Assembly (NCBI GenBank): GCA_017553785.1
Contig: JAFZKD010000104.1
Span: 1-56,592, forward strand
Source: Muribaculaceae bacterium
Lineage (GTDB): Bacteria; Bacteroidota; Bacteroidia; Bacteroidales; Muribaculaceae
Direction: 5' to 3'
Length of the DNA: 56,592 bases
Shown here: positions 7,093 through 39,644 of the stretch, in pieces
Layout: every line of letters begins with the position of its first letter
How positions within the stretch are numbered: the stretch's first letter is position 1
Program-made: the position numbers and the translations under genes
Notes under the pieces: model-generated
Database searches by the model: none
The model's input: the letters and a program-made list of their open reading frames with translations, nothing else
What the model was told of the DNA's origin: nothing

Positions 7093-7126
7093 CTGTAACC
7101 GTCAAACTCGTAATTCGATAACGGAA

Positions 7127-7474: not shown

Positions 7475-7491
7475 CATCCAGACGCGGAACT

Positions 7492-9594: not shown

Positions 9595-9607
9595 TTAGAT
9601 TCGCATC

Positions 9608-11071: not shown

Positions 11072-11098
11072 GATTATTCATCAACACAAGACAAAGAT

Positions 11099-12358: not shown

Positions 12359-12379
12359 TCAAACAATTAATACCAATTG

Positions 12380-13738: not shown

Positions 13739-13753
13739 AAAACAGAATGCTCC

Positions 13754-16232: not shown

Positions 16233-16243
16233 ATTTGGTTAAA

Positions 16244-18594: not shown

Positions 18595-18634
18595 CAACTA
18601 AATAAAAACGAAAATATAATATCTCTATTATTTT

Positions 18635-19960: not shown

Positions 19961-20012
19961 AACAGCGTTAAGAACTCATATACCCAAACAAAAAAATAAA
20001 AACAATCATAAT

Positions 20013-21416: not shown

Positions 21417-21442
21417 TATAATATTAAATAATGTGATAAAGA

Positions 21443-21465
21443 ATGGCCACGTGCATACGGGCCAT
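21443..21465. promoter_or_regulatory. hairpin between ftsZ and serS
   Basis: ATGGCC (21443-21448) pairs with GGCCAT (21460-21465); inside, CGT/ACG closes a GCAT loop. It sits 27 bases after the ftsZ stop and 26 bases before the serS start. The following bases (CTTTG) are a weak U-tract, so it may be a weak terminator of the dcw transcript or part of the serS leader. Confidence 0.5.
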
Positions 21466-21491
21466 CTTTGACTGTTAGATTTAATTTAAAA

Positions 21492-22763: not shown

Positions 22764-22782
22764 CGAGTGATACAGACTACGG

Positions 22783-22848
22783 ATTACGCGAATTAAACGA
22801 ATAGTTTTCAGATATCTGGATTCGTAAAATTCGCGTAATTCGTATTTT
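22783..22848 (+). terminator. long multi-stem inverted repeat after serS
   Basis: ATTACGCGAATT (22783-22794) pairs perfectly with AATTCGCGTAAT (22828-22839). Further in, ACGAAT (22797-22802) pairs with ATTCGT (22820-22825), and the tip contains the palindrome CAGATATCTG (22809-22818). ATTTTTG follows. This is a strong intrinsic terminator for serS, just upstream of the acyltransferase start at 22866. Confidence 0.75.
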
Positions 22849-22865
22849 TGAAGATTGAAGAGTGT

Positions 22866-23891
22866 ATGAAACGACAGGCTTGGCTCGATTATATCAAGTT
22901 CATCGCGATGTTTCTTGTCGTGGTCTATCACACGCCGCCGCGTTGCGAGCATGACGGCCATGTGCACGAACTCGCGTTATTCAATTTGGGTGCGCCCGTC
23001 TTCTTTTTTGCTGCAGGATATCTATTTAACATGGCGCGTCAGCGGGGATTTTTCGCCTTTTTGAAGAAACGCGCCCGTCAGATTCTGGTGCCATACACCA
23101 CATTCTTCATCATCTTTTATGCCCTGTGGCTGGTGATCGGCCGCCGCATGGCTGGTGCTGACGAACAGGCGATAGACACCTTCACGCCATTGTGGCAGTT
23201 CATTCAGGGTACACCTAAAACCGTCCTTGGCCCCTTCTGGTTCCTTGCCTGCCTGTTCACCATGCAGCTCATCTATTACCCGATTAAAAAGTGCCTGTCG
23301 GGCTTTTGGCCTGTTGTTGTCGCCATCCTCTTGAACCTTTCGCTGTTTATCATTCCTGCTGTTCCCTGGGTGATGTATTGGAATCTGGACCGCGCATTGC
23401 TGTTCATGCCGATTTATGCGGTGGGTAACTGCGGGCGTGAATGGTTTGACAAGGTTTCGTTTGATAAGCCTGCCAACGCTCTTTTGTGGCTGATACTGGG
23501 CGCTGTCGGGGTGGGGTTTCTCGTTATTGCGCCGCTGACGCTGGACCGTGAGGTGTCCTATATCCTCGCCACCGAGGCAATCCTCTGTGTCCTGCCGCTG
23601 ATTGTCGCCATCTGCAAGTGGCTGGAGAGCCGTTTCGGGACCAGCCGTGTCGCGCAGACGGTTGCCATCACCAGCATCACTTACCTTGCTTTGCAAAACT
23701 ATCTGATCGGCATCATCAAAATGCTGGTGGCTAAGGTGCTCGGTCCTGAGCTGCTGGACGGCAGCATCCTTATGAAGGTCGCCATCGCCATTGCCGTCAT
23801 GGTCATCCTATACCCGTTGGCGCTACTCATCGACCGTTACCTCCCCTTCCTCCTGGGCAAGTCCTATAAGAAAGGCCGTACAGTTGAATGA
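22866..23891 (+). CDS. membrane acyltransferase 3 family protein
   Basis: 341-residue integral membrane protein with about ten hydrophobic segments. It begins RQAWLDYIKFIAMFLVVVYHTPP: the D-x-x-(R/K) and the histidine of the first helix are hallmarks of the acyltransferase 3 family, which O-acetylates surface polysaccharides, LPS or peptidoglycan. GAPVFFFAAGYLF follows at the second helix. The acceptor cannot be told from sequence. The start at 22866 was chosen because it leads directly into the conserved WLDYIKF; an 18-base longer TTG start exists. No partner glycan genes adjoin it. Confidence 0.85.
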   Translation: MKRQAWLDYIKFIAMFLVVVYHTPPRCEHDGHVHELALFNLGAPVFFFAAGYLFNMARQRGFFAFLKKRARQILVPYTTFFIIFYALWLVIGRRMAGADEQAIDTFTPLWQFIQGTPKTVLGPFWFLACLFTMQLIYYPIKKCLSGFWPVVVAILLNLSLFIIPAVPWVMYWNLDRALLFMPIYAVGNCGREWFDKVSFDKPANALLWLILGAVGVGFLVIAPLTLDREVSYILATEAILCVLPLIVAICKWLESRFGTSRVAQTVAITSITYLALQNYLIGIIKMLVAKVLGPELLDGSILMKVAIAIAVMVILYPLALLIDRYLPFLLGKSYKKGRTVE

Positions 23892-24155
23892 TTATTATAT
23901 CAAAAGTACAAATAACGTTTTTTTGATTTCGGTGGGAGTTGCAAAACTAACGCCTAAAACTTATGACCGCGCTTCGCGCGAGAAATTCAAAATTATAAAT
24001 CAAATTCAAATAAAAGAGTTGTTCCTGCTGCTCCACGTTGTAATTGTTGTTTGAGAATAAGGAGCATGTTGTTTGAAAAGTGCGCGCAAGCCAACGCGAT
24101 GAGCGTGGTTTAATCGTGTGAAATGTGGAGAAGTGAAATATTTTGCGTACCTTTG
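23892..24155 (+). promoter_or_regulatory. gap before lysS with its -7 element
   Basis: The 301-bp gap 23892-24192 holds no gene. A GC-rich dyad (CGCGCTTCGCGCG, about 23966-23978) is followed by AT-rich sequence. TACCTTTG at 24148-24155 is a good -7 element for lysS, 38 bases before its ATG; the -33 element is weak. Confidence 0.55.
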
Positions 24156-24192
24156 CAGTTTAATAGAACAACAAATAAAGAGATAAGATACA

Positions 24193-25935
24193 ATGAATGT
24201 ACTGGAATTAAGCGAACAAGAGATTATCCGCCGCAACAGTTTGGAGCAGCTCAAGGCGATGGGCATCAACCCTTATCCTGCCGATGAGTATGTGGTCAAC
24301 GCCTATAGTGACGACATCATCGCCAACTTCAGCGACGATGCGGAGCCGCGTCAGGTAAGCATCGCCGGACGCATGATGAACCGCCGCATCATGGGCAAGG
24401 CCTCGTTCTTTGAGCTGCAGGACTCACGGGGCCGCGTGCAGGTGTACGTGAGCCGTGATGACCTGTGCCCTGACGAGAACAAGGACCTGTACAACACCGT
24501 GTTCAAGAAGTTGCTCGACATGGGCGACTTTGTGGGCGTTCAGGGATTCGTGTTCCGCACCCAGACGGGCGAGATCAGCGTGCATGCCCAATCGCTCAAG
24601 CTACTGAGCAAGTCGCTCAAACCGCTGCCCGTGGTCAAGCAGAAGGACGGCGTGACCTATGACGCGTTCGAGGATCCCGAACTGCGTTATCGCCAGCGCT
24701 ATGTGGATCTGGTGGTCAACGCTGGTGTGAAAGAAACCTTCCTGAAACGTGCCCAGGTGGTGAAGACCATGCGTCAGGTGCTTGATGATGCTGGCTATAC
24801 CGAGGTGGAAACCCCGACATTGCAGGCTATCGCCGGTGGTGCCACGGCACGTCCGTTCATCACCCACTTCAACGCGCTCAACATTCCCATGTACATGCGC
24901 ATCGCCACCGAGCTCTACCTCAAGCGACTGATTGTGGGCGGCTTCGAGGGCGTGTATGAAATCGGAAAGAACTTCCGCAACGAGGGCATGGACCGCAACC
25001 ACAACCCCGAGTTCACCTGCATGGAGCTGTATGTGCAGTACAAGGACTACAACTGGATGATGTCGTTCACCGAGCAGCTGCTGGAAAAGATCTGCGTCGC
25101 AGTCAACGGCAAGTCCGAGACCGAAATCGACGGCCAGGTCATCAGTTTCAAGGCGCCTTACCGCCGTCTGCCGATCCTTGAGGCCATCAAGGAGAAGACG
25201 GGCCACGACCTGGAGGGCAAGAGTGAGGACGAGATCCGTGACGTGTGCCGCCAGCTGAACCTCGAGATCGACGACACGATGGGCAAGGGCAAACTGATTG
25301 ACGAGATCTTCGGGGAGTTCTGCGAGGGTACATTCATCCAACCCACATTCATCATCGACTATCCCGTCGAGATGTCACCGCTGACCAAGATGCACCGTAC
25401 CAAGCCCGGCTTGACCGAGCGCTTCGAGCTGATGGTCAACGGCAAGGAGGTGGCTAACGCCTACAGTGAGTTGAACGACCCCATCGACCAGGAGGAGCGC
25501 TTTAAGGAGCAGATGCGCCTGGCCGACAAGGGCGACGACGAGGCGATGATCATCGACCAGGACTTCCTGCGCGCCCTGCAATACGGCATGCCTCCCACGA
25601 GCGGCATCGGCATCGGCATCGACCGTCTGGTGATGCTCATGACCGGCAACAGCTACATCCAGGACGTGCTGCTGTTCCCGCAGATGCGTCCCGAGAAGAC
25701 ACCGGCCCGTGACAGGGTCGAGGCATTTACCTCACTGGGCATTCCTGAGGAATGGGTCGCTCCCATTCAAAAAGCGGGTTTTCTCACCGTCGCGGCTTTA
25801 GGTGCTCTGGAGAAGCCCGGCAAGTTGTTCCAGGACCTGCTGGACATCAACAAGAAGTACAAACTCGGACTGAAAGTGCCTGTTGTTGACGAGGTCAAGA
25901 AATGGGTCGAGGCCGCAGCAGCGGTTCAGGAATAA
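24193..25935 (+). CDS. lysS: lysyl-tRNA synthetase, class II
   Basis: Charges tRNA-Lys. 580 residues, about 75 longer than the E. coli enzyme. N-terminal OB-fold anticodon domain (about 45-160), then the class II core: [10 protein letters not shown] (about 172), motif 2 [15 protein letters not shown] (about 259), and motif 3 [15 protein letters not shown] (about 470). After the core comes an extra C-terminal domain of about 75 residues ([20 protein letters not shown] onward), helical and seen in other Bacteroidota LysRS; its job is not known to me. It has its own promoter and a strong terminator, so it is monocistronic. Confidence 0.96.
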
Positions 25936-25964
25936 TTCTCATTAGCAGAGAGATAATCATCATC

Positions 25965-26011
25965 GTGAGCAGGAATCACCATCAAGAGGTATTTCCTGCT
26001 CACTTGTTTTT
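25965..26011 (+). terminator. lysS terminator
   Basis: GTGAGCAGGAA (25965-25975) pairs perfectly with TTCCTGCTCAC (25993-26003), followed by TTGTTTTT. A standard intrinsic terminator 30 bases after the lysS stop. Confidence 0.85.
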
Positions 26012-26085
26012 GTCATTTACAATTTTTAAGAAAGTTTATAGCATCTTATTTCCGTCAAATAGCCTGTTGTTTCGTTATTATTGTA

Positions 26086-26093
26086 TATCTTTG
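26086..26093 (+). promoter_or_regulatory. promoter -7 element of PorZ-like copy 1
   Basis: TATCTTTG, followed by GGCATTTGATTCAG. Similar box-plus-leader sequences precede copies 2 and 3. The leader to the ATG is about 96 bases and ends in GATATG. Confidence 0.65.
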
Positions 26094-26189
26094 GCATTTG
26101 ATTCAGTGGGTTTATGCGCGAAAGGGTGCATATCTCGCTGTGTTTGAGCGTGTTAATATTTTTGAGAACATTATAAATACTTACTTGAT

Positions 26190-28544
26190 ATGTCTAAGAA
26201 ACATCTTTTGTCCTTGCTGACCTTGCTGATGGTAGCCATGACTGCAAATGCGGGCACTTGGAAGATTCATAATGTCTATCTGGCTTCCAAGATCCAAAAT
26301 GTCTATGACATTGGCGACAAGGTTTATTACTTGAGTGGCAATATGTTATGTCAGTATGACAAGAACACTCAGGAAATAGTCACATTAAACAGCCAGAATG
26401 TCCTCTCGGATAAAACTGTGAATCAGATTTATTATGATGTGGACCGTGGGTTGCTTTTTGTGGCTTATGCCGATGCCAATATTGATGTGATTGACAGTAG
26501 CGGCAAAGTGACCAATATCAGTGCCATCAAGGATGCTATTGGCCGTGTGTATGGCGCTAAGCTGACCGATGGCGTGCTCACAAGCTGTTTGGACAAGAAA
26601 ATCTTTAACATTAACTTTGTTGACGGTATCGCCTATGTGGCCGTGGGGTATGGCTATGTGATGATTGACGAGTCAACGCTTAGGGTCATCAAGGATACCG
26701 TTTTGGGCGAGACGATTTGTGTCAACTCGGTGACACCACTTGGCGAAAACCTGCTGATACTCTCCAACACCTATTGCTATTACGGTCCCATTGGCGAGAC
26801 CGAACCTATCCGCAGGTACAACAAGTATAAACTCACATCCTCGTCGTTCACCGAGGGATTTATGTACCCGATAAATGACCACTCGGTGTTTGTCGTTGGT
26901 GCCAGCGCCTTATATAATTTTGACTTTGCCGATGACACGCTTGTTGTCACGACACTGGTAAGTGCCAAGCCGACGACGATCCAGAAGACGTCAACAGGCT
27001 TTGTCGCCAATTTCATGGGCAAAGCGTTCTATTACACGATTGACGCTACCGGAAAGGTTGCCACTCAGGCTTCGACTGAACAGGGATTTGCCACCTCTAA
27101 TCCATCGGGCGACGGCACGGTTTGGATTGCTGACGCTAACGGTTTGCATATCCAAAACAGCACTGAATACCATAAACTGAACTCTATGACCACCAATCGT
27201 CCACACTGGCTCAAGTATAATACAGCGATGGATCTGCTCTATGTGGGTGTGTCGGGCCGCAATCGTGGCTTGAGTGTGGCATCCAATGAATTACCCGACA
27301 ATGTCATCAACATCTATGACGGCACGAATTGGACCGATGCGACGGCATATACAGCCGCTGGCGCTGGCTATGCCTTCGTTTTCAATCCGCTGGATTCGAC
27401 AACCTATTTCCGCCCAAGTTGGAACAAGGGCATCCACAAGGTGACCAATAATGAGTTGAAGTTGATTTACACGAAGTCAAATTCGATGATTGGCACCAAT
27501 AAGCCCAATGTGGCATTCGACAACTACGGCAATTTGTGGGCGGTTTGTTCCTATGGTAACATGACTTGCCCGGCAGCGGTGCTGGTTAAGGATAGTGTCG
27601 CAAATAATCATGTCGCAAAGAGCGACTGGTACCAGCCCGATGGCTTGCTTGACCTTCACACGAAATACATGCAGGCTTCCAGCTTTGTGATCTCCAAGCT
27701 GAATAATGTCAAGATTTATACCGATGGCGATTTCAAGAAGCTTGGTAACGTCGGACGTATCTTCTGTTGGGACAATTTCATGGAGGATCCCACGCAAGGT
27801 ACTTACACGATGAAAATTTTCCCGTTCTTCACCGACCAGCGCAATAAGATGGTGGACTGGGAGTACATCTGGAAGATGGAGGAAGACGCCGAAGGTCTTG
27901 TTTGGGTGGGACATAGCGCGGGCTTGTTCGTGATCAACCCCCTTGAATTGTTCGACGACCAGCCCAAGGCAATCCGTCCCGTCATCACCAATTCATCCGA
28001 GAGCAAGGGTTACTTGTGCGAGGGATATTCGGTTCACGACATTGGCGTTGACAAGGATAATAACAAGTGGCTTGGCACCAACAACGGACTGTTTTTTGTG
28101 TCGCACGACGGCTCAGTGATATATGAGCATTTCACGACCCTCAACAGCGACCTTCCCGGCGATATGGTATATAGCGTGGAATGTGATCCTAAGCATGGAC
28201 GTGTTTTCATCTATACCGATGGCGGTTTTGCCGAGTATATCCCCGCAGGTGACGCTCCGGCACTGAACTATGATAACGTGTATGCATTCCCGAATCCCGT
28301 GGAGCCCGACTTCACCAGCATGATCAAGATCGCTAACTTGATGGAGAACACTTTTGTGACAATCACCGACAAGGATGGCCAGGTCATCGAACAGATCGGC
28401 CCGGTTTCGGGTAGCGCTTTGTGGGATGGCAGCGGTGCTGACGGCGCACGTGTGCCTACCGGCCTTTACAACATCTATGTCGCTCAGGGCGGGCAACCTG
28501 TGACGTCGGGTAAGCCTCAGGCGACAGTCATGATCATCAAGTAA
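26190..28544 (+). CDS. PorZ-like secreted beta-propeller protein, copy 1
   Basis: 784-residue exported protein. Signal peptide (1-21, KKHLLSLLTLLMVAMTANA), then GTWKIHNVYLASKIQNVYDI, the start of a PorZ-type N-terminal beta-propeller; repeated blades run to about 680 with motifs such as VYYLSGNMLC, WLKYNTAMDLLYVGVS and DNNKWLGTNNGLFFVS. The last ~85 residues (from YAFPNPVEPDFTS) form a T9SS-type C-terminal sorting domain ending VMIIK. In Porphyromonas PorZ belongs to the cell-surface attachment complex and presents A-LPS to the sortase PorU. Here it is the first of five tandem relatives; its exact role is inferred only. Own promoter and terminator. Confidence 0.8.
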   Translation: MSKKHLLSLLTLLMVAMTANAGTWKIHNVYLASKIQNVYDIGDKVYYLSGNMLCQYDKNTQEIVTLNSQNVLSDKTVNQIYYDVDRGLLFVAYADANIDVIDSSGKVTNISAIKDAIGRVYGAKLTDGVLTSCLDKKIFNINFVDGIAYVAVGYGYVMIDESTLRVIKDTVLGETICVNSVTPLGENLLILSNTYCYYGPIGETEPIRRYNKYKLTSSSFTEGFMYPINDHSVFVVGASALYNFDFADDTLVVTTLVSAKPTTIQKTSTGFVANFMGKAFYYTIDATGKVATQASTEQGFATSNPSGDGTVWIADANGLHIQNSTEYHKLNSMTTNRPHWLKYNTAMDLLYVGVSGRNRGLSVASNELPDNVINIYDGTNWTDATAYTAAGAGYAFVFNPLDSTTYFRPSWNKGIHKVTNNELKLIYTKSNSMIGTNKPNVAFDNYGNLWAVCSYGNMTCPAAVLVKDSVANNHVAKSDWYQPDGLLDLHTKYMQASSFVISKLNNVKIYTDGDFKKLGNVGRIFCWDNFMEDPTQGTYTMKIFPFFTDQRNKMVDWEYIWKMEEDAEGLVWVGHSAGLFVINPLELFDDQPKAIRPVITNSSESKGYLCEGYSVHDIGVDKDNNKWLGTNNGLFFVSHDGSVIYEHFTTLNSDLPGDMVYSVECDPKHGRVFIYTDGGFAEYIPAGDAPALNYDNVYAFPNPVEPDFTSMIKIANLMENTFVTITDKDGQVIEQIGPVSGSALWDGSGADGARVPTGLYNIYVAQGGQPVTSGKPQATVMIIK

Positions 28545-28577
28545 TCTATTGATGTCGAGAATACCAGTTTACATAGC

Positions 28578-28610
28578 GAGGGTATGCTGTTCGGCATACC
28601 CTCTTGTGTT
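28578..28610 (+). terminator. terminator after PorZ-like copy 1
   Basis: GAGGGTATGC (28578-28587) pairs perfectly with GCATACCCTC (28594-28603) around TGTTCG, followed by TTGTGTT. The T-tract is modest. Confidence 0.65.
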
Positions 28611-28641
28611 GGACTGAGTCGTGTATCATCACCCTCTCCCT

Positions 28642-29100
28642 ATGGATATAACATCGGTTGAATTCTATACTCTGGCATTTGTGTTGGCGATGGCATTAAT
28701 CGCGTTGCTCATTGGACGCAACGAGAAAAGCTTGCCCAGCACCTATATTGTGCAACTGCCTACGGCACCTGACGAGGAGGGGAAGGAGGACGTCTTGTCG
28801 ATTGAAGTCGTTGAGGACGGGAAAGTCAGATTCTCTCGAACAGGCTTGACTCTAGGTCCCGAGGAGACCATCAATCTGGTGTTCACCATTCGGGACGACC
28901 ATTGCTCCATTGTGGAAAAGAAAGGCAGGAAGCACCGGGGCGCGACGGGGCTGCCTGTTACGGGCGAGGTGACGGTGAAATGTTTGCGGTCAGGTATCAA
29001 GTACTGGATGCGATATGAGAGTCAGGTGACCAGCAAGTGGGCTTCTTTTACATTCGACACCACATCGCCGCAACCCAAAAATATTGAGCTAAGGTATTGA
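28642..29100 (+). CDS. small membrane-anchored hypothetical protein
   Basis: 152 residues from ATG 28642. One membrane helix near the N-terminus (about 8-25, LAFVLAMALIALLIG) and then a soluble domain rich in beta-type sequence (SIEVVEDGKVRFSRTGLTL, VFTIRDDHCSIVEKKG, VTGEVTVKC). I do not recognise the family. It lies between PorZ-like copies 1 and 2 on the same strand, 97 bases after the copy-1 stop and behind its terminator. Association with the array is by position only. Confidence 0.65.
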   Translation: MDITSVEFYTLAFVLAMALIALLIGRNEKSLPSTYIVQLPTAPDEEGKEDVLSIEVVEDGKVRFSRTGLTLGPEETINLVFTIRDDHCSIVEKKGRKHRGATGLPVTGEVTVKCLRSGIKYWMRYESQVTSKWASFTFDTTSPQPKNIELRY

Positions 29101-29172
29101 TTCCCTAAATGGTTGTATGTGTGGGTGAATGCAAAAAAAATACTAAAAGTCCAATTATTTCGTTTTTTTTTA

Positions 29173-29180
29173 TACCTTTG
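29173..29180 (+). promoter_or_regulatory. promoter -7 element of PorZ-like copy 2
   Basis: TACCTTTG inside TTTTTATACCTTTGGCCGTT, resembling the copies upstream of the first and third PorZ-like genes. The leader is about 96 bases and ends in GATATG. Confidence 0.65.
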
Positions 29181-29276
29181 GCCGTTGATTCGGCAGATGT
29201 GACTTAACATGGCTTCTATCTGCTTGATAATTAGTATATTGTGAACAATTTGATATATTATTAAACATACCTAGAT

Positions 29277-31643
29277 ATGCTAAAAAGACATATTCTTCTC
29301 TTTGTGCTCATCGTGATGTCGGTAGCGGTATCGGACGCGACCACATGGATAAGGCACAATTATTATGTGTCGTCCAGCATCCAAAATATCTTTGATACGG
29401 GCGATAAGGTTTACTATCTGAACAGTAATATGTTGTACAGGTTTGACAAAGCGACTAGCACGACTGCCGCGTTGTTCCAACAGAACATATTGTCAGACAA
29501 CTATATCGACCAGATTTATTATGACTATGAGCGGAACCTGCTGTTCGTGGCCTATGCCGATGCCAATATTGATGTCATTGACGGAGAAGGTGCGGTAACA
29601 AATATCAGCAGCGTCAAGGATGCGATTGTGCGGGTGTATAATGTCAAGTTTGATGAAAACAGTAACTTGTCGAGTTATACCGAAAAGCGGATCAACGACA
29701 TCACCTTTTCTAATGGTATGGCCTACGTTGCCATTGGTTATGGTTATGTGGCAATTGACGAGAGCACGATGAGGGTGGTGAAGGAAAAAGTGTTGAGTGA
29801 GACGATCAATGTCAATTCAGTGACTATGTTAGGTGACCTGTTGCTGATTCTCTCCAACACCTACTGCTATTACGGCTCGCCTGATGCCGATGACCCGATC
29901 AAGCAGTTCGCCAAATTTAAAAGCCCCTCTTCATCATTCACTGGCGGAAGGCTGTTTCCCATTGATGACCACTCAACGTTTGTGGTTGGCGCCTCGGCGC
30001 TGTACAGGTGTGATTTTTCGACATCACCCGTGGGCATCACGACGCTCGCGTCGGTTAAGCTGGGCTTTGTGCAGAAGTCATTGAATGGTTACATCGCCAA
30101 TTTCTCGGACCAGCAGTTCTATTATACGATTGATGAGGCCGGACTGGTGGCAACCCAGGTAGCGAACGAGGGCGGTTTTGCCAGCTGCAATCCCTCAGGC
30201 GACGGCACGGTGTGGATATCGGATGCCAACGGATTACATATTGATAACAGCACAGAGTACTATAAGTTGACTGCCATGACCACCAACCAACCCTACTGGC
30301 TCAAGTATAATACGGCAATGGATCTGCTCTATGTGGGCGTGTCGGCGCGAAACGGTAATACGCTGTTATCAGGTGCGCTGCCTGCTAACGTCATCAACAC
30401 CTTTGATGGGACGACATGGTCTGACGCCACGGCCTATAAGGCACTCGGAGCAGGCTATGAGTTTGTGTTCAATCCACTGGATTCAACGACCTATATGCGG
30501 GCTTCATGGGATCGTGGTATCCACAAGGTGACCAACAATGTGATGAAACTGAATTATACCTATGCCAATTCCTTGATTGGTAAGTATAAAGCCCATCCGG
30601 CCTTTGACATCTACGGTAACATGTGGGTGGTCAGCTCCTATCAGCATGCCGACTATCCTACAGTGCCTACTGCGGTTCTACCCAAGGAATATGTGGCCAA
30701 GAACTCAGTCTCAAAAGCCAGATGGTTTGAGCCTAGCGGCCTGACTGCACTGAATACGAATCACATGCAGCGTTCCAGGTTTTTGGTCTCAAAGTTGAAT
30801 AATATCAAGATTTATTCCGACTGTGATTACCTGTCAACAGGTATGGCGGGCCGCATCATGTGTTGGGATAATTTTAATGAGGATCCCACGTTGGACACCT
30901 ATCAGTTCACGTCAATCGGCAGTTTCATGGATCAAGCCAACAAGATGGTGACATGGTCCAATATCTCTCACATGGAAGAGGATGTTGAGGGTCTCATTTG
31001 GGTGGGTTATGAATCCGGTGTGTTCTTCTTTGATCCCAATATCGTGTTTAGTGAGGTTCCCATGGCCACCAGACCCATCGTGACTAACCAGACCGAGGAG
31101 AAAGGAAGCTACCTGTGCGAAGGTAATATCGTGTACGACATTGGCGTTGACCGTAACAACAACAAGTGGCTTGCAACCAACGAGGGTGTTTATCACGTGT
31201 CGCCCGACGGCTCTCAGATAATTGCCCACTACACGACCTCAAACAGCGATATTCCCAGCGACATCGTCTATAGTGTGGAGTGCGATACCAAACATAACCG
31301 GGTTTATATCTATACCGAGAATGGATTCGCCGAGTATTTCGCCGAGGCTGATGCTCCCGCACTGGACTTTAATAGCGTGTATGCTTATCCCAATCCTGTT
31401 GAGCCCGACTTTACCGGTATGGTCAAGATTGCGAACCTGATGGCAGATACCTACGTGACAATTACCGACCATAATGGACAGGTGGTGGCACAATTGGGCC
31501 CGGTGATGGGTGGTGCCTTGTGGGACGGCAGCGGTGCTGATGGCTCAAGAGTGGATACAGGACTCTATAACATTTATGTTTCCCAGGGTGGGCAACCCGT
31601 CACAACGGGCGCTCCCCAAGCCACTATCATGATTATCAAGTAA
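29277..31643 (+). CDS. PorZ-like secreted beta-propeller protein, copy 2
   Basis: 788 residues, with the same plan as copy 1: signal peptide (1-20, ending VAVSDA), TTWIRHNYYVSSSIQNIFDT at the start of the propeller, blades with YADANIDVIDGEG, WLKYNTAMDLLYVGVSARNG and NNNKWLATNEGVYHVS, and a C-terminal sorting-type domain from YAYPNPVEPDFTG to TIMIIK. It is closest by eye to copies 1 and 3; the last ~130 residues are very alike between copies, while central loops (for instance around the SYQHADYPT segment) vary. Own promoter and terminator. Function inferred as T9SS surface-complex related. Confidence 0.8.
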   Translation: MLKRHILLFVLIVMSVAVSDATTWIRHNYYVSSSIQNIFDTGDKVYYLNSNMLYRFDKATSTTAALFQQNILSDNYIDQIYYDYERNLLFVAYADANIDVIDGEGAVTNISSVKDAIVRVYNVKFDENSNLSSYTEKRINDITFSNGMAYVAIGYGYVAIDESTMRVVKEKVLSETINVNSVTMLGDLLLILSNTYCYYGSPDADDPIKQFAKFKSPSSSFTGGRLFPIDDHSTFVVGASALYRCDFSTSPVGITTLASVKLGFVQKSLNGYIANFSDQQFYYTIDEAGLVATQVANEGGFASCNPSGDGTVWISDANGLHIDNSTEYYKLTAMTTNQPYWLKYNTAMDLLYVGVSARNGNTLLSGALPANVINTFDGTTWSDATAYKALGAGYEFVFNPLDSTTYMRASWDRGIHKVTNNVMKLNYTYANSLIGKYKAHPAFDIYGNMWVVSSYQHADYPTVPTAVLPKEYVAKNSVSKARWFEPSGLTALNTNHMQRSRFLVSKLNNIKIYSDCDYLSTGMAGRIMCWDNFNEDPTLDTYQFTSIGSFMDQANKMVTWSNISHMEEDVEGLIWVGYESGVFFFDPNIVFSEVPMATRPIVTNQTEEKGSYLCEGNIVYDIGVDRNNNKWLATNEGVYHVSPDGSQIIAHYTTSNSDIPSDIVYSVECDTKHNRVYIYTENGFAEYFAEADAPALDFNSVYAYPNPVEPDFTGMVKIANLMADTYVTITDHNGQVVAQLGPVMGGALWDGSGADGSRVDTGLYNIYVSQGGQPVTTGAPQATIMIIK

Positions 31644-31670
31644 CCCCGCAAGGACTATACTGATACTCGG

Positions 31671-31720
31671 TTCATCCGTTTTGAATGATGCTTTGTTCAG
31701 GACGGATGAATCGTTTTTTT
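31671..31720 (+). terminator. terminator after PorZ-like copy 2
   Basis: TTCATCCGT (31671-31679) pairs with ACGGATGAA (31702-31710), followed by TCGTTTTTTT. Strong intrinsic terminator. The rest of the 340-bp gap to copy 3 contains no gene, only the copy-3 promoter and leader. Confidence 0.8.
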
Positions 31721-31880
31721 GTGTCATAACTATGGCTCTGTCGGTGCAGTCGACACTATCTGGAAGAGTGGGGGCGGGCTTTACTTGATGGTGTCTGATT
31801 CAGGTGCCTGTCAGATGGTTGTGGTTGCGACGAGTTAGTTAAAATAAGTGTCAAAAGGCCTCTTTTTCGGTTTTATTTTA

Positions 31881-31888
31881 TAACTTTG
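31881..31888 (+). promoter_or_regulatory. promoter -7 element of PorZ-like copy 3
   Basis: TAACTTTG, preceded by TTTTATTTTA and followed by GCTTTTAATTCAGCGG, matching the pattern upstream of copies 1 and 2. The leader is about 95 bases, ending in GATATG. Copies 4 and 5 have no such box and are probably read from here. Confidence 0.65.
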
Positions 31889-31983
31889 GCTTTTAATTCA
31901 GCGGATAATGCGGTCACTGCTGCGTATATCCCTGTAATTCAGTGTGTTGATATTGATTTGAAATATAATAAATCTTTTACGAT

Positions 31984-34338
31984 ATGTTAAAGAAACATCT
32001 TATTCTCTTGACCCTCTTGGTAATTGTGGCAGCAAGCGGTAACGCGGGCACTTGGAAAATGCATAACAGCTATGTGACCAGCAATATCCAAAACATTTTT
32101 GATACAGGCAGTCAAGTATATTATTTGAACAGTAACGTGTTGTTCAGATATGATAAGTCAACCCAGGTCACGACCGCGTTGAATCAGCAGAATGTCCTCT
32201 CCGACAGTCATATCGACCAGATCTATTTTGACTATGAGCGGAACCTGCTCTTTGTCGCCTATATCAACGCCAATATCGATGTGATTGACGGTAATGGCAA
32301 GGTGACTAATGTTCCGGCGATCAAGAATGCCCTTTCCCATGTGTATAATTACACGTTGAGCAGTTCGGTGCTGGCCGATTATTCCGCGAAAAAGATCAAT
32401 GACATCACTTTCGCCAATGGTGTGGCCTACATCACGGCCGGTTTCAGGTATGTCGCTCTGAATGAGTCCGACATGAGGGTGATTTCAGATGATGTGCTGG
32501 GCGATGAGATCAAACTCAATTCGGTTGCTGTATTAGGCGACAACATGATCATCCTGTCCAATACCAACTGCTATTATGGCCCTAAAGGCTCGAGTAATCC
32601 CATCGGGGAGTTTGCTAGATATACCAATCCTGTCTCTACGATGAATGCGGCCAAGATATTCCCCATCGATGACCACTCGGCATTTGTCCTTGGCCCGTCG
32701 GCCTTGTACAATTATGATTTCTTGGGTGGCACGCTGACCAAGACAACGTTGGTTTCAAATAAGCCGACGAGTGTTCAGAAGACTTCGACCGGTTTTATCG
32801 CCAACTTTGCAGGGCAGTCATTCTACTATACCATCGATGCGACTGGCAAGGTGGCCACCAAGGCATCGACGGCTGTCGGATTCGCTTCCTCCTATCCGAC
32901 GGGTGATGGCACAGTCTGGATCAGCGACGCTTATGGTCTGCACGTCAAGAACAGTTCGGCGTATTATAAACTCAATACCTTGACTACCAACCAGCCTTAC
33001 TGGCTCAAGTACAACAGTGCGATGGATCTGCTCTATGTGTGCTCCACCGCGCGCAATGGCAAGAACGTGATTACCGAGACTCCGGCTAACGTTATCAATG
33101 CCTATAATGGAAGCACCTGGTCCAATGTCACGGCCTATTCCGCTAATGGTTCAGGCTATGAGTTTGTGTTCAACCCGCTGGATTCCACGACCTATGTCCG
33201 TGCCAGTTGGGAGAATGGTCTCCACAAGGTGACCAACAACGTTCTGAAGTACACCTATACCAGGAACAATTCCTTGATGGGAACCTTCAAGGCTCATCCC
33301 GCATTTGATAAATATGGAAACATGTGGGTGGTTAGTTCCTATGGCAATGAGAATTGCCCGGCTGCCGTATTGCCCAAGGCAAAGGTGGCACAGGCTTCGG
33401 TCTCCAAGACCGATTGGTTCCAGCCCACAGGACTTAAGGCGCTGAATACGGGCAACATGCAGCGCTCGCGCTTTGTTATCTCAAGGTTGAACAACGTCAA
33501 GATTTATTCCGACTGTGACTATTTGGGTTCGGACTTTAGGGGACGCATCCTGTGCTGGGACAACTTTAACGAGGACCCCACTGTGAACGATTACAAGTTT
33601 TTGAGCATTTCCCACTTTACCGACCAGGACAACAAGCAAGTGAAATGGACCTATCTCCTGCATATCGAGGAGGCCCCCGATGGCTATATCTGGGTGGGTC
33701 ATACCGGAGGCTTGTTCTTCTTCCATCCCGACGAAGTGTTCGCTGTTAATCCTAAGGCTGTGCGCCCCCGTGTCACTGTCGCCAAGTCGAGCGATGATTT
33801 GGGCTACCTGTGTGACGGATTTGAGGTGCATGATGTCGGCTTTGAACGCAGCGGCAGGAAGTGGATTGCCACCAACAATGGACTCTTTTATGTTTCGCCC
33901 GATGGTACCGAAGTGTATGAGCATTTCACGACCCGTAACAGCGACATTCCCAGCGACATCGTCTATAGCGTGGAGTGTGACACGAAGCATGACCGTGTAT
34001 ATATTTACACTGATAATGGCTTTGCCGAGTATGTGCCTGACAGTGAGGCGGCTTCGCTCGATTTCAACAATGTCTATGTTTTCCCCAATCCCGTTGAGCC
34101 AGACTTTACTGGAATGGTCAAGATTGCAGGCCTCATGGCCGACACCTACATCACTGTCACGAACCACGAGGGTGCTGTGGTTGCCCAATTAGGCCCAGTG
34201 ATGGGTAGTGCCTTGTGGGACTGCAGTGACGCCAGCGGAGAGAGGGTTCCGACGGGTGTGTACAACATTTATGCAGCTCAAGGTGCTTATCCTGTGGCAA
34301 CGGGAACACCGCAAAGCACGGTCATGATTATCAGGTAA
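31984..34338 (+). CDS. PorZ-like secreted beta-propeller protein, copy 3
   Basis: 784 residues. Signal peptide (1-20, LLTLLVIVAASGNA), GTWKMHNSYVTSNIQNIFDT opening the N-terminal propeller, and blade motifs YINANIDVIDGNG, WLKYNSAMDLLYVCSTARNG and GRKWIATNNGLFYVS. The sorting-type C-terminal domain runs from YVFPNPVEPDFTG to TVMIIR. Probably the first gene of a three-gene unit with copies 4 and 5 (71- and 49-base gaps with no promoter). As with the other copies, surface export by T9SS is inferred from the C-terminal domain and not shown. Confidence 0.8.
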   Translation: MLKKHLILLTLLVIVAASGNAGTWKMHNSYVTSNIQNIFDTGSQVYYLNSNVLFRYDKSTQVTTALNQQNVLSDSHIDQIYFDYERNLLFVAYINANIDVIDGNGKVTNVPAIKNALSHVYNYTLSSSVLADYSAKKINDITFANGVAYITAGFRYVALNESDMRVISDDVLGDEIKLNSVAVLGDNMIILSNTNCYYGPKGSSNPIGEFARYTNPVSTMNAAKIFPIDDHSAFVLGPSALYNYDFLGGTLTKTTLVSNKPTSVQKTSTGFIANFAGQSFYYTIDATGKVATKASTAVGFASSYPTGDGTVWISDAYGLHVKNSSAYYKLNTLTTNQPYWLKYNSAMDLLYVCSTARNGKNVITETPANVINAYNGSTWSNVTAYSANGSGYEFVFNPLDSTTYVRASWENGLHKVTNNVLKYTYTRNNSLMGTFKAHPAFDKYGNMWVVSSYGNENCPAAVLPKAKVAQASVSKTDWFQPTGLKALNTGNMQRSRFVISRLNNVKIYSDCDYLGSDFRGRILCWDNFNEDPTVNDYKFLSISHFTDQDNKQVKWTYLLHIEEAPDGYIWVGHTGGLFFFHPDEVFAVNPKAVRPRVTVAKSSDDLGYLCDGFEVHDVGFERSGRKWIATNNGLFYVSPDGTEVYEHFTTRNSDIPSDIVYSVECDTKHDRVYIYTDNGFAEYVPDSEAASLDFNNVYVFPNPVEPDFTGMVKIAGLMADTYITVTNHEGAVVAQLGPVMGSALWDCSDASGERVPTGVYNIYAAQGAYPVATGTPQSTVMIIR

Positions 34339-34409
34339 GCCATACAATTTACTGCAGTTTGTCACGTTCTAATAGAAATGAATGGTTTTTCATCTTAGAT
34401 AGGCTCAGT

Positions 34410-36791
34410 ATGTTAAAAAGATATCTTGTTCTGCTTGCAGTCATGGTGGTGGCTTCGCTTGTCACCAATGCAGGCACATGGAAAATCCACAACAGCTATG
34501 TGGGTTCCAAGGTGTACAATGTGGTGGATGCCCGAGATAAGGTCTATTACCATAACGGCAAGTCGCTGTACAGGTATGATAAGGCCACACAGTCAACGGT
34601 GATGCTGACCCCGCAGAACCTCCTTTCGGACTACACGGTGGATAATATCTTCTACGATTCCCAAAAGGATCTGCTTTTTGTCGCCTATGAGAATTGTAAT
34701 ATCGATGTCATCGATGGTAACGGCAAGGTGACCAATATCAGCAATTACGGCAATGCCAATCCCCGTATGCGCCGTTATGTCGTGGAAAATGGATCGCTAA
34801 CTGAATACACCGACTGGTCCATCTCGGATATCACTTTCTTGAATGGTACGGCATGTGTCGCAACGGGCGTCGGGTATTTCCTGATTAACGAGTCGACCAT
34901 GAAGATCACCCGCTACATGGAGCTGAAAGATGAAGTCACGGTCAACTCAACGGCGCTGTTGGGTGACCTGTTGCTCATCTTGACCAATGCCAGCTGCTAT
35001 TACGGCCCGGTATCGTCCGATGACCCTATCAATGAGTTCAAGAAGCAGAAGGCCAGTTCGTCGGCTGGTGGTAAGATGTTCCCCATCGACAGCCATTCGA
35101 CATTTGTGCTGGGAGGTTCGGCCCTCTATCATTTTGACTTTTCAGGCGCTACCCCCACGGTAACGACGTTAGTGTCTGCCAAGCCTACAAATGTGCAGCG
35201 GACAGCTACGGGCTTTATCGCTAATTTCTCAGGCAAGAATTATTACTACACCTTTGATTCGTCAGGCAAGTCTCCGACTAAAGTGAGCACCCAGGGCGGT
35301 ATGGTCTCGTCAAATCCTGACGGCGACGGCACCGTGTGGATTGCCGATGCCGACGGCCTGCATACCCTTAACGGCTCAGTCATTGGAGAACTGAATGCCA
35401 TGACGACCGATGAGCCTTACTGGCTCAAGTATAACACCGCTACCGACCTGCTCTATGTGGGCGTGTCGGCGAGAAACGGCATCATGCACTTGTATGACCT
35501 TCCTGCCAACGCCATCAATGTTTATGACGGTCAGACGTGGGCCGATGCTACCGCTTATAAGGCCAACGGCGCAGGCTATGAGTTCGTTTTCAACCCCATG
35601 GATTCCACGACCTACTTGCGCGCAAGCTGGAATCTTGGTCTCCACAAGGTGACCAATAATGTCTTAAAGACCACCTACTCCAAGAGCAATTCACTGATGG
35701 GAACCTACAAGGCCCATCCGGCATTTGACAAACAGGGTAACCTGTGGGTCGTTAACTCGTATAAGAGCAAGAAGGATTCAGTCGTTTATCATGGTGACTC
35801 TATCCCCACGCCTCCAGTGGCCATGCTGTCCAAAGAGAAGGTGGCCAAGACCAAGGTGACCTATAACGACTGGTTCATGCCCAGTGGCCTTGGCTTTGTA
35901 TATACCGGGAAGATGCAACGGTCGCGCTTTGTGATTTCTAAACTCAATAACGCCAAGATTTATACCGATGGCGATTTTATGGACAAGGGCGCATCGGGCT
36001 CGATTTTGTGCTGGGATAATTTTAGCGAGGATCCCACAGTAGATAATTACACCCTGTCATCAATTTCAAGTTTCACCGACCAGAATAACAAACTGATCAA
36101 GTGGGTCAACCTTTCACACATGGAGGAGGATGCCGATGGCCTCATTTGGACGGGGCACACTGCAGGCTTGTTTGTATTCAACCCGTCGGTGGTCTTTGAT
36201 CTGAACCCCAAGGCTATCCGCCCCAAGGTGCTCAGTGCGCCGTTGAACGAGGATTTAGGCACTTTGTGCGAGGGCTGTTGTGTCTATGACATTGCTGTTG
36301 ACCGTGACAACAATAAATGGATTGCTACCAGCAATGGACTCTATTTCGTATCCCCTGACGGCACCCGGATCTATGAGCATTACACGACACAGACAAGCGA
36401 TATCCCCAGCGATATCGTGTATAGCGTGGAGTGTGATCCGGAGCATAGCCGTGTTTACATCTATACCCAAAACGGATTTGCCGAGTATATGGATGGTGAG
36501 CCTGCGGCTATTGACTATAATAATGTCATTGTCTATCCTAATCCTGTTGAGCCCGATTTTACCGGAATGGTAAGGATTGAGGGACTCATGGCAGATTCCT
36601 ATGTGACAATCACCGACCATGACGGGCACACCGTGGCCCAGATGGGACCGGTAACCGGAACGGTGTTGTGGGACGCTTGTGACGCCGATGGCGACAGGCT
36701 CCCAACGGGTATCTACGGCATCTATGCGTCACAGGGCTCAATCCCCGTGGCTAACAATAAGCCGTGTGCCACAGTCATGATTATCAAGTAA
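34410..36791 (+). CDS. PorZ-like secreted beta-propeller protein, copy 4
   Basis: 793 residues from ATG 34410, which begins the signal peptide MLKRYLVLLAVMVVASLVTNA; the frame is open further upstream but that part is not signal-like. GTWKIHNSYVGSKVYNVVDA starts the propeller. Blades include YENCNIDVIDGNG, WLKYNTATDLLYVGVSARNG and DNNKWIATSNGLYFVS. An extra loop with SYKSKKDSVVYHGDSIPTPP (about 450) is not in copies 1 and 3. C-terminal domain from IVYPNPVEPDFTG to VMIIK. No promoter of its own; likely cotranscribed with copy 3. Confidence 0.8.
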   Translation: MLKRYLVLLAVMVVASLVTNAGTWKIHNSYVGSKVYNVVDARDKVYYHNGKSLYRYDKATQSTVMLTPQNLLSDYTVDNIFYDSQKDLLFVAYENCNIDVIDGNGKVTNISNYGNANPRMRRYVVENGSLTEYTDWSISDITFLNGTACVATGVGYFLINESTMKITRYMELKDEVTVNSTALLGDLLLILTNASCYYGPVSSDDPINEFKKQKASSSAGGKMFPIDSHSTFVLGGSALYHFDFSGATPTVTTLVSAKPTNVQRTATGFIANFSGKNYYYTFDSSGKSPTKVSTQGGMVSSNPDGDGTVWIADADGLHTLNGSVIGELNAMTTDEPYWLKYNTATDLLYVGVSARNGIMHLYDLPANAINVYDGQTWADATAYKANGAGYEFVFNPMDSTTYLRASWNLGLHKVTNNVLKTTYSKSNSLMGTYKAHPAFDKQGNLWVVNSYKSKKDSVVYHGDSIPTPPVAMLSKEKVAKTKVTYNDWFMPSGLGFVYTGKMQRSRFVISKLNNAKIYTDGDFMDKGASGSILCWDNFSEDPTVDNYTLSSISSFTDQNNKLIKWVNLSHMEEDADGLIWTGHTAGLFVFNPSVVFDLNPKAIRPKVLSAPLNEDLGTLCEGCCVYDIAVDRDNNKWIATSNGLYFVSPDGTRIYEHYTTQTSDIPSDIVYSVECDPEHSRVYIYTQNGFAEYMDGEPAAIDYNNVIVYPNPVEPDFTGMVRIEGLMADSYVTITDHDGHTVAQMGPVTGTVLWDACDADGDRLPTGIYGIYASQGSIPVANNKPCATVMIIK

Positions 36792-36840
36792 AACAATAAC
36801 ACTATCCCTGTTGATGAAAGGGGTTAATAATCAGTTTATA

Positions 36841-39177
36841 ATGGTCAAGAAGATATTATTTCTGGCAGTTGTGTTCCTGTCGGTGTGCGCTAGTGCGCAA
36901 AACGCCGTTGGTGATTGGCGCATCCATTCATCCTTTGTGGGCAACAACATTAAAATGATTGCCGAGGGCAACAAATGGGTGTATTACCTGTCGGGTGGAA
37001 ACCTTTTCCGTCTGGATAAGGAGACTCAGGAAAATGAGTCGTTGAGCAAGGTCAATGACTTGAGCGACATGATCATTTCCAACGCCTATTACAACGATGA
37101 CCAGGACTATCTGGTGGTGGTTTATACCAATTCCAACATTGACGTGATTCTCTCTAACGGATCGGTGGTGAATATGTCCGAGATCAAGGATGCTGTAATG
37201 ACCCAGAGCAAGACCATCAATGATGTCTCTTTTGCCCCAGGGCGGATTTATGTCGCATGTGATTTTGGCTATGTCGTTATTGATGAATCCAAGTTTGTGG
37301 TGAAGGAATCGCTCATTCTTGGCGAGAAGGTGACCTCGGTGGCTCAATTGGGCGAATGGCTGTTGCTCTCCACCCCGGCCAAGTCCTATTACGGCTTAGC
37401 ATCTGACTATCATGAGCATTTGGCGTCGTTCGACAGGGCAAGCTTCAAGGAGGCATCTCTCATTAGACCCATCAATGATGAAACTTTTTTCTGCTTAGCT
37501 AAAAAAGAAACCTATTTGGTCAATGCCGTTCCCTCTCAGGAAGGCAAGCTGCAGTTTGATACCATTACCATTCTGAACCAAAAGGTTCGGGGTGCCAATG
37601 TCTCCCAAGTACAGGCCACTGATGGAGGGTTCATCCTCAATTCAGCCGAGGCCGGGAGATCCTTCAAGACCGATCAGGCAGGCGTTGTCTGTGACACCAT
37701 CGGTGTTGAAGGGGAAATCTGTGCCGGGCATCCTTCTGGCGGTGGCCAGATGTGGGCTGTGGGTGCTCATGGACTTCACCAGTTGAACAGTGTTGGCTAT
37801 TACGTTCCCAACGCGCCGACGATGCCCATGCCTTTCTGGATGACCTATAACAAGGAGCGTGATCTGCTCTATGTCTCTTCTACGGGAACTAATTACTTCT
37901 TTGAAGATAATGCCTATCCCATCCAAGTCAACACCTATGACGGCATAAAGTGGACCGACGTCACGCCCGAAGACGCTCCCAATAGTTCCACGAGAGGTTC
38001 CTACTGGCTGGACTTCATGCCTGGCGACCCTGACACCTACCTGTTGAGCACTTGGCGCAATGGACTGCTCAAGGTCAAGGATAACAAGGTTGTCTATGTC
38101 TATGACTACGAGAACAGCCCCATGCTCAAGAAATATGCTGTGCACCCCATCACAAGAATAGACCGCAATGGCAACGTGTGGGCGGTGGAGCCCCTCTACA
38201 ACGAGGAGCATCCTGTCATGGTCCTGCCAGCCGCGAAGTCCAAACTGGACGAGGTGACAGTGAGCGACTGGATCACCCCCAGCATTGATGGCATATATAC
38301 TGGATCGACCAGTAAACGAGCCAGCTTCATATCGACGCGCAATAGCCAGAATGACATCAAGATATTTACCGATGGTGACTACCAGAGGCCTTTGTTCTTC
38401 TGGAACAGTGCCGGAGAGATTTCTGACCATCCGCAACAGGCCTGGTATGCCCAATTGCCTGACCAGGACGGGGAGATTGTGTCATGGACGAATATCATGT
38501 GCCTGACCGAGGACAATAACGGCAACGTGTGGATGGGAACGACCGAGGGTGTATGCGTCTTCAATCCCGCCAATGCTTTTAATGTCGGTGCCTTCAATGT
38601 GGTGAGGCCCAAGGTGCCCCGCAACGACGGCACGGGCATGGCCGACCGCCTGATGGACGGCATCCAGGTCAACGATGTGGCAGTCGATGGCGCTAACCGC
38701 AAGTGGCTTGCTACCAATTCGTCTGGTCTGTTCCTTGTGAGCTCCGACGGCACCGAGATTATCAGGAAATTCAACACGACCAACAGTCCGCTGGCCAGCA
38801 ACACCGTCTATCGGGTGTGCTGCAACCCCAGCAACAACTCGGTCTATGTCGCTACACCGGCCGGATTGTATGAGTACTTCAGCGACTCCAGCCCTGCCCA
38901 GCCGACCTACGAGAACATCTATGCCTATCCCAACCCTGTCCGTCCCGATTATGGCGGCGATGTGACGGTGACGGGCATGATGGACAATTCGCTGGTGAAG
39001 ATCGCCGATGCCAGCGGTCAAGTCATCAGGCAACTCAAGTCCACTGGTGGCATGGCGACCTGGGACTGCTGTGACCAGAATGGTGAACGCGTCAAGACGG
39101 GCGTTTATTTCGTCCTCTGTTCCCAGGCCAACGGCAGCGGTGAGGCCGTAGTGACCAAGATCGCCGTCATCAGGTGA
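36841..39177 (+). CDS. porZ: PorZ-like protein, copy 5; likely the PorZ orthologue
   Basis: 778 residues from ATG 36841 (signal peptide MVKKILFLAVVFLSVCASAQ); a 10-codon longer start exists. The mature part opens VGDWRIHSSFVGNNIKMIAEG, which is closer to canonical PorZ (WRxH..Y....I.E....Y.LS.G.L) than the other four. Propeller to about 690, then the C-terminal domain with YPNPVRPDYGGDVTVTGMMD and GERVKTGVYFVLCSQANGSGE, the usual PorZ ending. PorZ is part of the PorU/V/Q/Z attachment complex of the T9SS on the outer membrane and binds A-LPS. The symbol is given on family resemblance; none of porU, porV or porQ is in this window. Confidence 0.75.
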   Translation: MVKKILFLAVVFLSVCASAQNAVGDWRIHSSFVGNNIKMIAEGNKWVYYLSGGNLFRLDKETQENESLSKVNDLSDMIISNAYYNDDQDYLVVVYTNSNIDVILSNGSVVNMSEIKDAVMTQSKTINDVSFAPGRIYVACDFGYVVIDESKFVVKESLILGEKVTSVAQLGEWLLLSTPAKSYYGLASDYHEHLASFDRASFKEASLIRPINDETFFCLAKKETYLVNAVPSQEGKLQFDTITILNQKVRGANVSQVQATDGGFILNSAEAGRSFKTDQAGVVCDTIGVEGEICAGHPSGGGQMWAVGAHGLHQLNSVGYYVPNAPTMPMPFWMTYNKERDLLYVSSTGTNYFFEDNAYPIQVNTYDGIKWTDVTPEDAPNSSTRGSYWLDFMPGDPDTYLLSTWRNGLLKVKDNKVVYVYDYENSPMLKKYAVHPITRIDRNGNVWAVEPLYNEEHPVMVLPAAKSKLDEVTVSDWITPSIDGIYTGSTSKRASFISTRNSQNDIKIFTDGDYQRPLFFWNSAGEISDHPQQAWYAQLPDQDGEIVSWTNIMCLTEDNNGNVWMGTTEGVCVFNPANAFNVGAFNVVRPKVPRNDGTGMADRLMDGIQVNDVAVDGANRKWLATNSSGLFLVSSDGTEIIRKFNTTNSPLASNTVYRVCCNPSNNSVYVATPAGLYEYFSDSSPAQPTYENIYAYPNPVRPDYGGDVTVTGMMDNSLVKIADASGQVIRQLKSTGGMATWDCCDQNGERVKTGVYFVLCSQANGSGEAVVTKIAVIR

Positions 39178-39238
39178 CACCCGGTTCAGCAAAACGTTTT
39201 TTAACCGAAGAACTTATTTCTTCAGACTAATGTCATTC

Positions 39239-39293
39239 AAGCCCTGTGTTGACCTGCTGCGGTGCAGGCACATAGGGCTTGTTTCCTGTTTTT
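39239..39293. terminator. terminator after the PorZ-like array
   Basis: AAGCCCT (39239-39245) pairs with AGGGCTT (39274-39280), with an inner CCTGC/GCAGG hairpin, followed by GTTTCCTGTTTTT. It lies between the convergent PorZ copy 5 and the remnant at 39315. Confidence 0.65.
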
Positions 39294-39314
39294 GCGTGTT
39301 CGCGGTCGAGGCTT

Positions 39315-39644
39315 TTAGTTTGATTCTGTTGCGGTAGGGGTTTCGGAGTCAGTCGGCTTGAAGTCGTTGATGTATTCATTGAGGCTGACTTCCAGTCCCA
39401 ACAGCTTGGCGATGCGCCGTTTCTTGTTATATACCGAATGCTCATCGTTGTAGCCCATGCATGACATGATGACCGTCGTGGGCAGGTCACAGCAGTACAG
39501 GCACAGGAAGTTGATGTCGCTGTCGTTCATTGCGGGGCAGCTTTCGGCGGTACGTGTGATGATGTTGTCAAAACGACTGTTCACATAATTGCGCAGCATC
39601 AGAAGGTGACCATCTGATTGATCCTCAACCATGGGATTATTCAA
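39315..39644 (-). pseudogene. C-terminal remnant of a helix-turn-helix regulator
   Basis: About 109 codons whose second half looks like the C-terminal DNA-binding helix-turn-helix of the large Bacteroidota sensor/regulator proteins with TPR repeats: SDINFLCLYCCDLPTTVIMS, then YNDEHSVYNKKRRIAKLLGL. The only starts are a TTG at 39644 and internal ATGs. Upstream the frame stays open and helix-like (GVGLPLVLLQRQAHAHQSISRT) to a TAA about 110 bases further, with no start. The sensor and TPR part is missing, so I read it as a 5'-truncated pseudogene; a short functional protein is possible. Confidence 0.45.

Follow-up and report, generated by a model that had tools for sequence, protein, structure and literature searches.

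Why should a bacterium carry five PorZ genes side by side? Most of what is understood about attachment in the T9SS comes from Porphyromonas gingivalis, in which a single sortase works with a single glycan carrier and PorZ is present in one copy. The window, i.e., the whole stretch of 56,592 nucleotides that was analysed, is the entire contig C112 of a draft Muribaculaceae genome (G000; 2.54 Mb, 80% complete), and its positions 26190-39177 are occupied by five tandem plus-strand PorZ-type genes. A sequence-only reading of this DNA had proposed that they may supply alternative subunits of the attachment complex. The proposal has gained independent support from a parallel amplification of the PorU sortase, and is refined here to one canonical PorZ plus four paralogues; the arrangement suggests several alternative forms of the protein-anchoring machine in this genome.

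Composition of the PorZ array

The array is flanked on the upstream side by lysS (lysine-tRNA ligase, 24193..25935, plus strand; NCBIfam match) and on the downstream side by two plus-strand DUF4251 genes (PF14059; 39904-40479 and 41097-41591), and these neighbours are found on the same sides in many of the PorZ stretches fetched from other genomes. Copies 1-5 have 784, 788, 784, 793 and 787-788 codons, respectively. Copy 1 (26190..28544) scores 58.2 bits with PF21544, the PorZ_N_b_propeller profile, and 310.4 bits with NF052228, the T9SS_PorZ equivalog; the corresponding scores are 64.6 and 277.5 bits for copy 2 (29277..31643) and 63.5 and 314.0 bits for copy 3 (31984..34338). Copy 4 (34410..36791 from its ATG) scores 65.0 and 293.5 bits, both on the longer ORF of 810 codons that starts with an upstream TTG at 34359. 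Copy 5 (36811..39177), with 104.2 and 472.9 bits, is 788 aa long from a TTG and 787 aa from the following ATG, and an internal ATG at 36841 is a better fit to the profile start. Every copy exceeds the Pfam cut-off of 27 bits (58.2-104.2 bits) and, near full length, the NCBIfam cut-off of 260 bits (277.5-472.9 bits), which bears out both the five consecutive PorZ-type frames of the earlier reading and the match of each to the N-propeller model. The three-domain arrangement of the copies was judged solely by this full-length profile match. For copies 3 and 5, the sole two searched, the closest solved structure is P. gingivalis PorZ (PDB 5m11; E 8.6e-31 and 1.6e-56, respectively).

At the protein level, copies 1-4 are mutually 55-61% identical and share 33-35% identity with copy 5. 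In the tree, copy 5 clusters with the PorZ that lies furthest downstream in related genomes, and copies 1-4 constitute a separate paralogue group. Judged by these relationships, the array is one canonical PorZ with four paralogues, probably derived by tandem duplication, and not a set of five equals. Another explanation is that the PorZ paralogues have left the attachment complex and act as solo secreted propellers that bind glycans, used in adhesion or in trapping glycans from the host or the environment, the PorU amplification being a separate event. Their identity of just 33-35% to canonical PorZ fits with this, as does the span of the NF052228 match, which runs from model position 1 or 2 to 742 or 743 in copies 1-4 and over 1-757 of 757 in copy 5; furthermore, the PorZ structure is described, in the available text of PMC5121618, as resembling a glycan-binding two-propeller sensor. 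However, the paralogues are still over the PorZ equivalog cut-off, and they mostly remain at the PorZ locus with conserved order. Such a departure from the complex is regarded here as unlikely, and the copy numbers considered below also bear on it.

The C-terminal domain, which the sequence-only reading expected to score as a sorting domain, did not do so in the profile search: none of the five copies reaches the TIGR04183 cut-off of 23 bits, copy 5 scoring 18 bits and copies 1-4 giving no match at E<=1, a result counted against the parallel modules discussed below. Since significant sequence similarity among CTDs is said to be lacking in the available text of PMC11285876, this failure is not decisive. 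A FlgD_ig match is located in the C-terminal domain of the PorZ copies, over the cut-off in copy 1 only.

Between copies 1 and 2 lies a conserved plus-strand ORF of 152 aa (28642..29100) with an N-terminal hydrophobic stretch and without a known family: its best Pfam match has E 0.23 and no NCBIfam match appeared at E<=1, with a query one codon short. With tblastn it is matched in 30 of the 40 PorZ stretches that were fetched from the genus, in or beside the arrays, and its relatives also adjoin PorZ in two genomes of another genus (g28). A promoter scan of 25901-39300 with a Bacteroidota consensus gave two matches, both within copy 1. Upstream of the array lies a dcw-type cell-division/peptidoglycan cluster (6169-21416), with the MraW methylase gene at one end and ftsZ at the other. 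Near the start of the window, a minus-strand gene (2346-4190) encodes a protein in which a type I dockerin domain comes after an Omp28 domain, a pairing that appears unusual.

Copy numbers of PorZ and PorU

PF21544 matches all of the 101 genomes of the genus, 95 with at least two hits and six with one (mean 2.7, maximum six), these being whole-genome hits that do not imply a tandem arrangement. For 40 further genomes, hand-picked from the ones for which both PorZ and PorU hits were listed, the PorZ stretch was fetched and its ORFs were classified by profiles from G000: 35 stretches harbor 2-6 PorZ-type ORFs and five harbor one, the canonical locus without a second PorZ in these five being counted against the parallel modules discussed below. 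An assembly artefact was rejected for the G000 array, because copies 1-4 are just 55-61% identical as proteins and 35 of the 40 stretches elsewhere carry several PorZ-type ORFs. At one locus (L046:15533-17853, RUG575), the most downstream PorZ is broken into two ORFs, the break being either genuine or due to assembly.

A draw of 247 genomes from the family includes 26 of the genus; among the other 221, the table read by eye gives two PorZ in 36, one in 176 and none in 9. In a draw of 395 genomes from the phylum, 250 match PF21544, and besides G000 just nine of the 249 have more than one, also by eye, in agreement with the earlier statement that PorZ is usually single copy. From these counts, therefore, the genus is characterized by multi-copy PorZ, variable in number, with the five-gene array near the upper end. 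The survey and the tree proposed in the sequence-only reading confirm multiple copies genus-wide, with the qualification that their number varies and that the five are unequal (copy 5 canonical, copies 1-4 in the paralogue clade). As that reading had also supposed, no report of a multi-copy PorZ array was found, nor of a PorU array, within the coverage of the open literature searched. A single-contig genome of another family in the phylum draw (G439) has four PorZ N-propeller hits and one PorU over the cut-off; its PorZ amplification is perhaps unrelated.

Outside the window, contig C33 of G000 carries five PorU-type ORFs in tandem (20603-39527). Their scores with the PorU profile NF033707 are, in gene order, 952, 698, 676, 704 and 665 bits at a cut-off of 420, the gene with 952 bits being the canonical one; PorU matches in this genome number six in one profile search and five in another, and five tandem genes stand on C33. 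The paralogues are 61-65% identical mutually and 30-33% identical to canonical PorU, from which they are separated by two same-strand ORFs, the first of which is presumably the redox regulator Rex. The T9SS itself is present in G000 (PorU 952 bits, PorV 462 bits, PorQ 354 bits, 15 TIGR04183 matches). Every one of the 61 genomes of the genus that were searched has two or more matches to PorU at E<=0.001, a split gene counting as two. In the same 61 genomes, two PorV or two PorQ over the cut-off occur in none, and a single one occurs in 57, for each gene taken separately.

For the genus, 120 PorU-type proteins of over 1000 residues, with fragments below that left out, were aligned, and the midpoint-rooted tree has 40 canonical-type and 80 paralogue-type members. 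With proteins assigned by clade, the catalytic His and Cys are retained in all 80 of the paralogue clade and in 39 of the 40 of the canonical clade. The sole exception is a canonical-type PorU adjoining the PorZ array of G094 (L089:800-4231), in which His is changed to Arg and Cys to Ala; it is possibly a pseudo-sortase. Canonical PorU of G000 matches P. gingivalis PorU (PDB 6za2) over residues 33-1146 (E 1.3e-162), and the paralogue U4 matches it over residues 32-1128 (E 8.2e-108). We take H657 to be the catalytic His of P. gingivalis PorU. By counting along the alignment, the conserved Cys of U4 corresponds to C690, if the chain numbering is two lower than that of the full protein. A C690A protein is the PorU mutant used in the available part of PMC5562754.

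The sizes of the two arrays are correlated. Across 41 genomes, Spearman's coefficient is 0.62 (p 2e-5), and independent contrasts, for which the tree was built from canonical PorU plus PorZ, give r 0.63 (p 1e-5, 40 contrasts), with signs agreeing in 13 and disagreeing in 6. The array counts were read by hand, and the canonical PorU of G100 (from a profile search) and of G073 (assumed), both outside the fetched stretches, were added. A subset of 34 genomes, from which G015, G018, G024, G039, G054, G060 and G073 are left out for an array at a contig end, a split gene or copies off the locus, gives a Spearman coefficient of 0.55 (p 0.0009) and 0.59 for the contrasts (p 0.0002; signs agree in 14, disagree in 8), and the correlation does not fall when the seven are restored. 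With the whole-genome PF21544 count in place of the PorZ locus count, the values are 0.56 and 0.54.

The coupling of PorU and PorZ array sizes is nevertheless loose. The arrays are unequal in 19/41 genomes, four of which have 2 PorZ and 4 PorU, and this is counted against parallel modules. A strict one-to-one coupling was ruled out, the two loci being equal in just 22/41. Over 61 genomes, the whole-genome hit counts of both genes correlate with a rho of just 0.31 (p 0.017), and p is 0.09 in the 30 genomes of at least 90% completeness. Counts of TIGR04183 tails give rho 0.35 with PorZ counts and 0.09 with PorU counts; because these tails track PorZ equally well, part of the coupling may be general T9SS scaling. 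For the explanation by solo propellers, the evidence here is divided: the PorZ and PorU copy numbers are often unequal, as it would have them, but the number of PorZ paralogues does track the size of the PorU array.

Elsewhere in the family, outside this genus, all 21 genomes with two PorZ have two or more PorU matches, and two PorZ occur in none of the 22 whose PorU count is below two (Fisher p 0.012, 112 genomes, kinship ignored), while 69/91 genomes with fewer than two PorZ still have at least two PorU matches, again counted against modules. A second long PorU match was seen by eye in 20 of the 21 two-PorZ genomes and in 23 of 25 one-PorZ genomes, and not clearly in G181, G108 and G136; the 25 were preselected for at least two PorU matches, so that the frequency of a second PorU is not to be drawn from them. 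Outside the family, 24/24 tested genomes have a single PorU over the cut-off, which in one genome is divided into two pieces of the same frame. That extra PorZ requires extra PorU was ruled out as a rule for the whole phylum, since 8/8 multi-PorZ genomes outside the family have one PorU over the cut-off, which is also counted against modules; these are eight of the nine in the phylum draw, G711 (13% contaminated) being left out.

Origin and selection of the paralogues

In rooted trees that include other genera, the PorU paralogues share a single clade with genes of six of these (g6, g21, g23, g25, g27 and g28), each of which has one paralogue-clade PorU per genome among the fetched stretches. 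The support at the base of this clade is 0.595, and that of the canonical clade is 0.987. The paralogue clade is expanded in the genus under study. The extra PorZ genes, according to the rooted tree, arose more than once: in a g6 genome and in a g30 genome they pair with each other inside their own genus, those of g21, g23 and g28 form a common group, and those of the studied genus branch inside the portion of the tree occupied by that genus, with weak deep support. Within the genus, the PorZ and PorU trees both contain older paralogue lineages common to related species together with recent local duplications. For example, three-lineage patterns match between G094 and G100.

Among 17 hand-chosen pairs (13 paralogue, 4 canonical), dN/dS is 0.05-0.21, a range that also holds for the 13 paralogue pairs, with six dS values over 1 and near saturation; for the 10 PorZ pairs, including 7 paralogue pairs, it is 0.05-0.14. 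These ratios indicate strong purifying selection on the tested pairs. Such selection, like the lineage-specific recent duplicates in the PorZ and PorU trees, would also be expected if the copies provided dosage or redundancy, i.e., more complexes of one kind, retained since amplification raises anchoring capacity. The G000 copies, however, differ by about 35-45%, some of the older paralogue lineages are common to related species, and PorV and PorQ are unamplified, and this explanation is judged improbable. A variable surface coat has also been considered, in which diversification serves to evade recognition by phage or host and brings no new biochemical specificity. It agrees with the variation of copy number between species and with the surface location expected from PorZ, but hardly with dN/dS of 0.05-0.14 in the 10 tested PorZ pairs, 7 of them paralogue, nor with a catalytic dyad fully kept in the PorU paralogues, and it appears very improbable.

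A contrast between a variable propeller and a constant C-terminal domain was tried as a sign of ligand diversification and set aside. In G094 and G100, the C-terminal domain is 83-86% identical versus 61-73% for the propeller, and the contrast is absent in G064 and G052; it was not taken as evidence because a similar profile is seen in canonical PorZ across genomes and not in all arrays.

Additional surface modules and known systems

Of the surface subunits, the two amplified here, PorU and PorZ, are those that do not form outer-membrane barrels. In the simplest mechanism, the PorZ array and the PorU array would be the two halves of a co-amplified pair, and the paralogues would form extra, interchangeable PorU-PorZ modules on the cell surface. 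These modules would all use one PorV and one PorQ as their outer-membrane docking barrels and share the translocon; when the CTD is cleaved and a glycan attached, the modules would differ in the surface glycan presented or in the subset of cargo served. From the gene content and its conservation, we predict such additional modules, docking on shared PorV and PorQ and differing by glycan or cargo, with a probability of roughly 0.45, slightly below even. A more specific form, in which several parallel attachment complexes share the translocon, PorV and PorQ while each PorU paralogue is active, paired with a PorZ paralogue and provided with its own glycan and its own cargo, is proposed tentatively. 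We infer that the PorU and PorZ paralogues cooperate, are exposed on the surface and differ in specificity.

If the more specific form holds, the Gram-negative sortase system would be modular, with interchangeable pairs of sortase and glycan carrier. A genus that repeatedly duplicates PorU and PorZ, not PorV and PorQ, provides a natural experiment on glycan and cargo specificity, and its matched paralogue sets allow PorU-PorZ pairing to be predicted and tested.

Comparable logic is known from Gram-positive bacteria, which have multiple sortase classes. In P. gingivalis, PorZ is described as binding A-LPS (anionic LPS), and its interaction with PorU as stronger with A-LPS present, the pairing being species specific (available text of PMC8545088). 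PorU-PorV and PorZ-PorQ are described as subcomplexes, with PorV in excess (available part of PMC5562754). The putative T9SS sortase PorU2 (NF052324) has weak similarity to U4, the sole paralogue scanned, yet is a different family: U4 scores 90.2 bits against a cut-off of 450 and is not a member, and the name PorU2 is therefore avoided for these genes. P. gingivalis PorU (6za2) is matched nearly along the chain by both U4 and canonical PorU of G000, with the Cys at C690 by counting, but here five genes stand in tandem instead of one, and the C-terminal end of the paralogues has diverged. The likeness to P. gingivalis PorZ (5m11) likewise extends to the full-length profile match, the N-propeller domain and the size, copies 3 and 5 matching the structure, whereas here there are five tandem genes, four of which form a divergent paralogue group.
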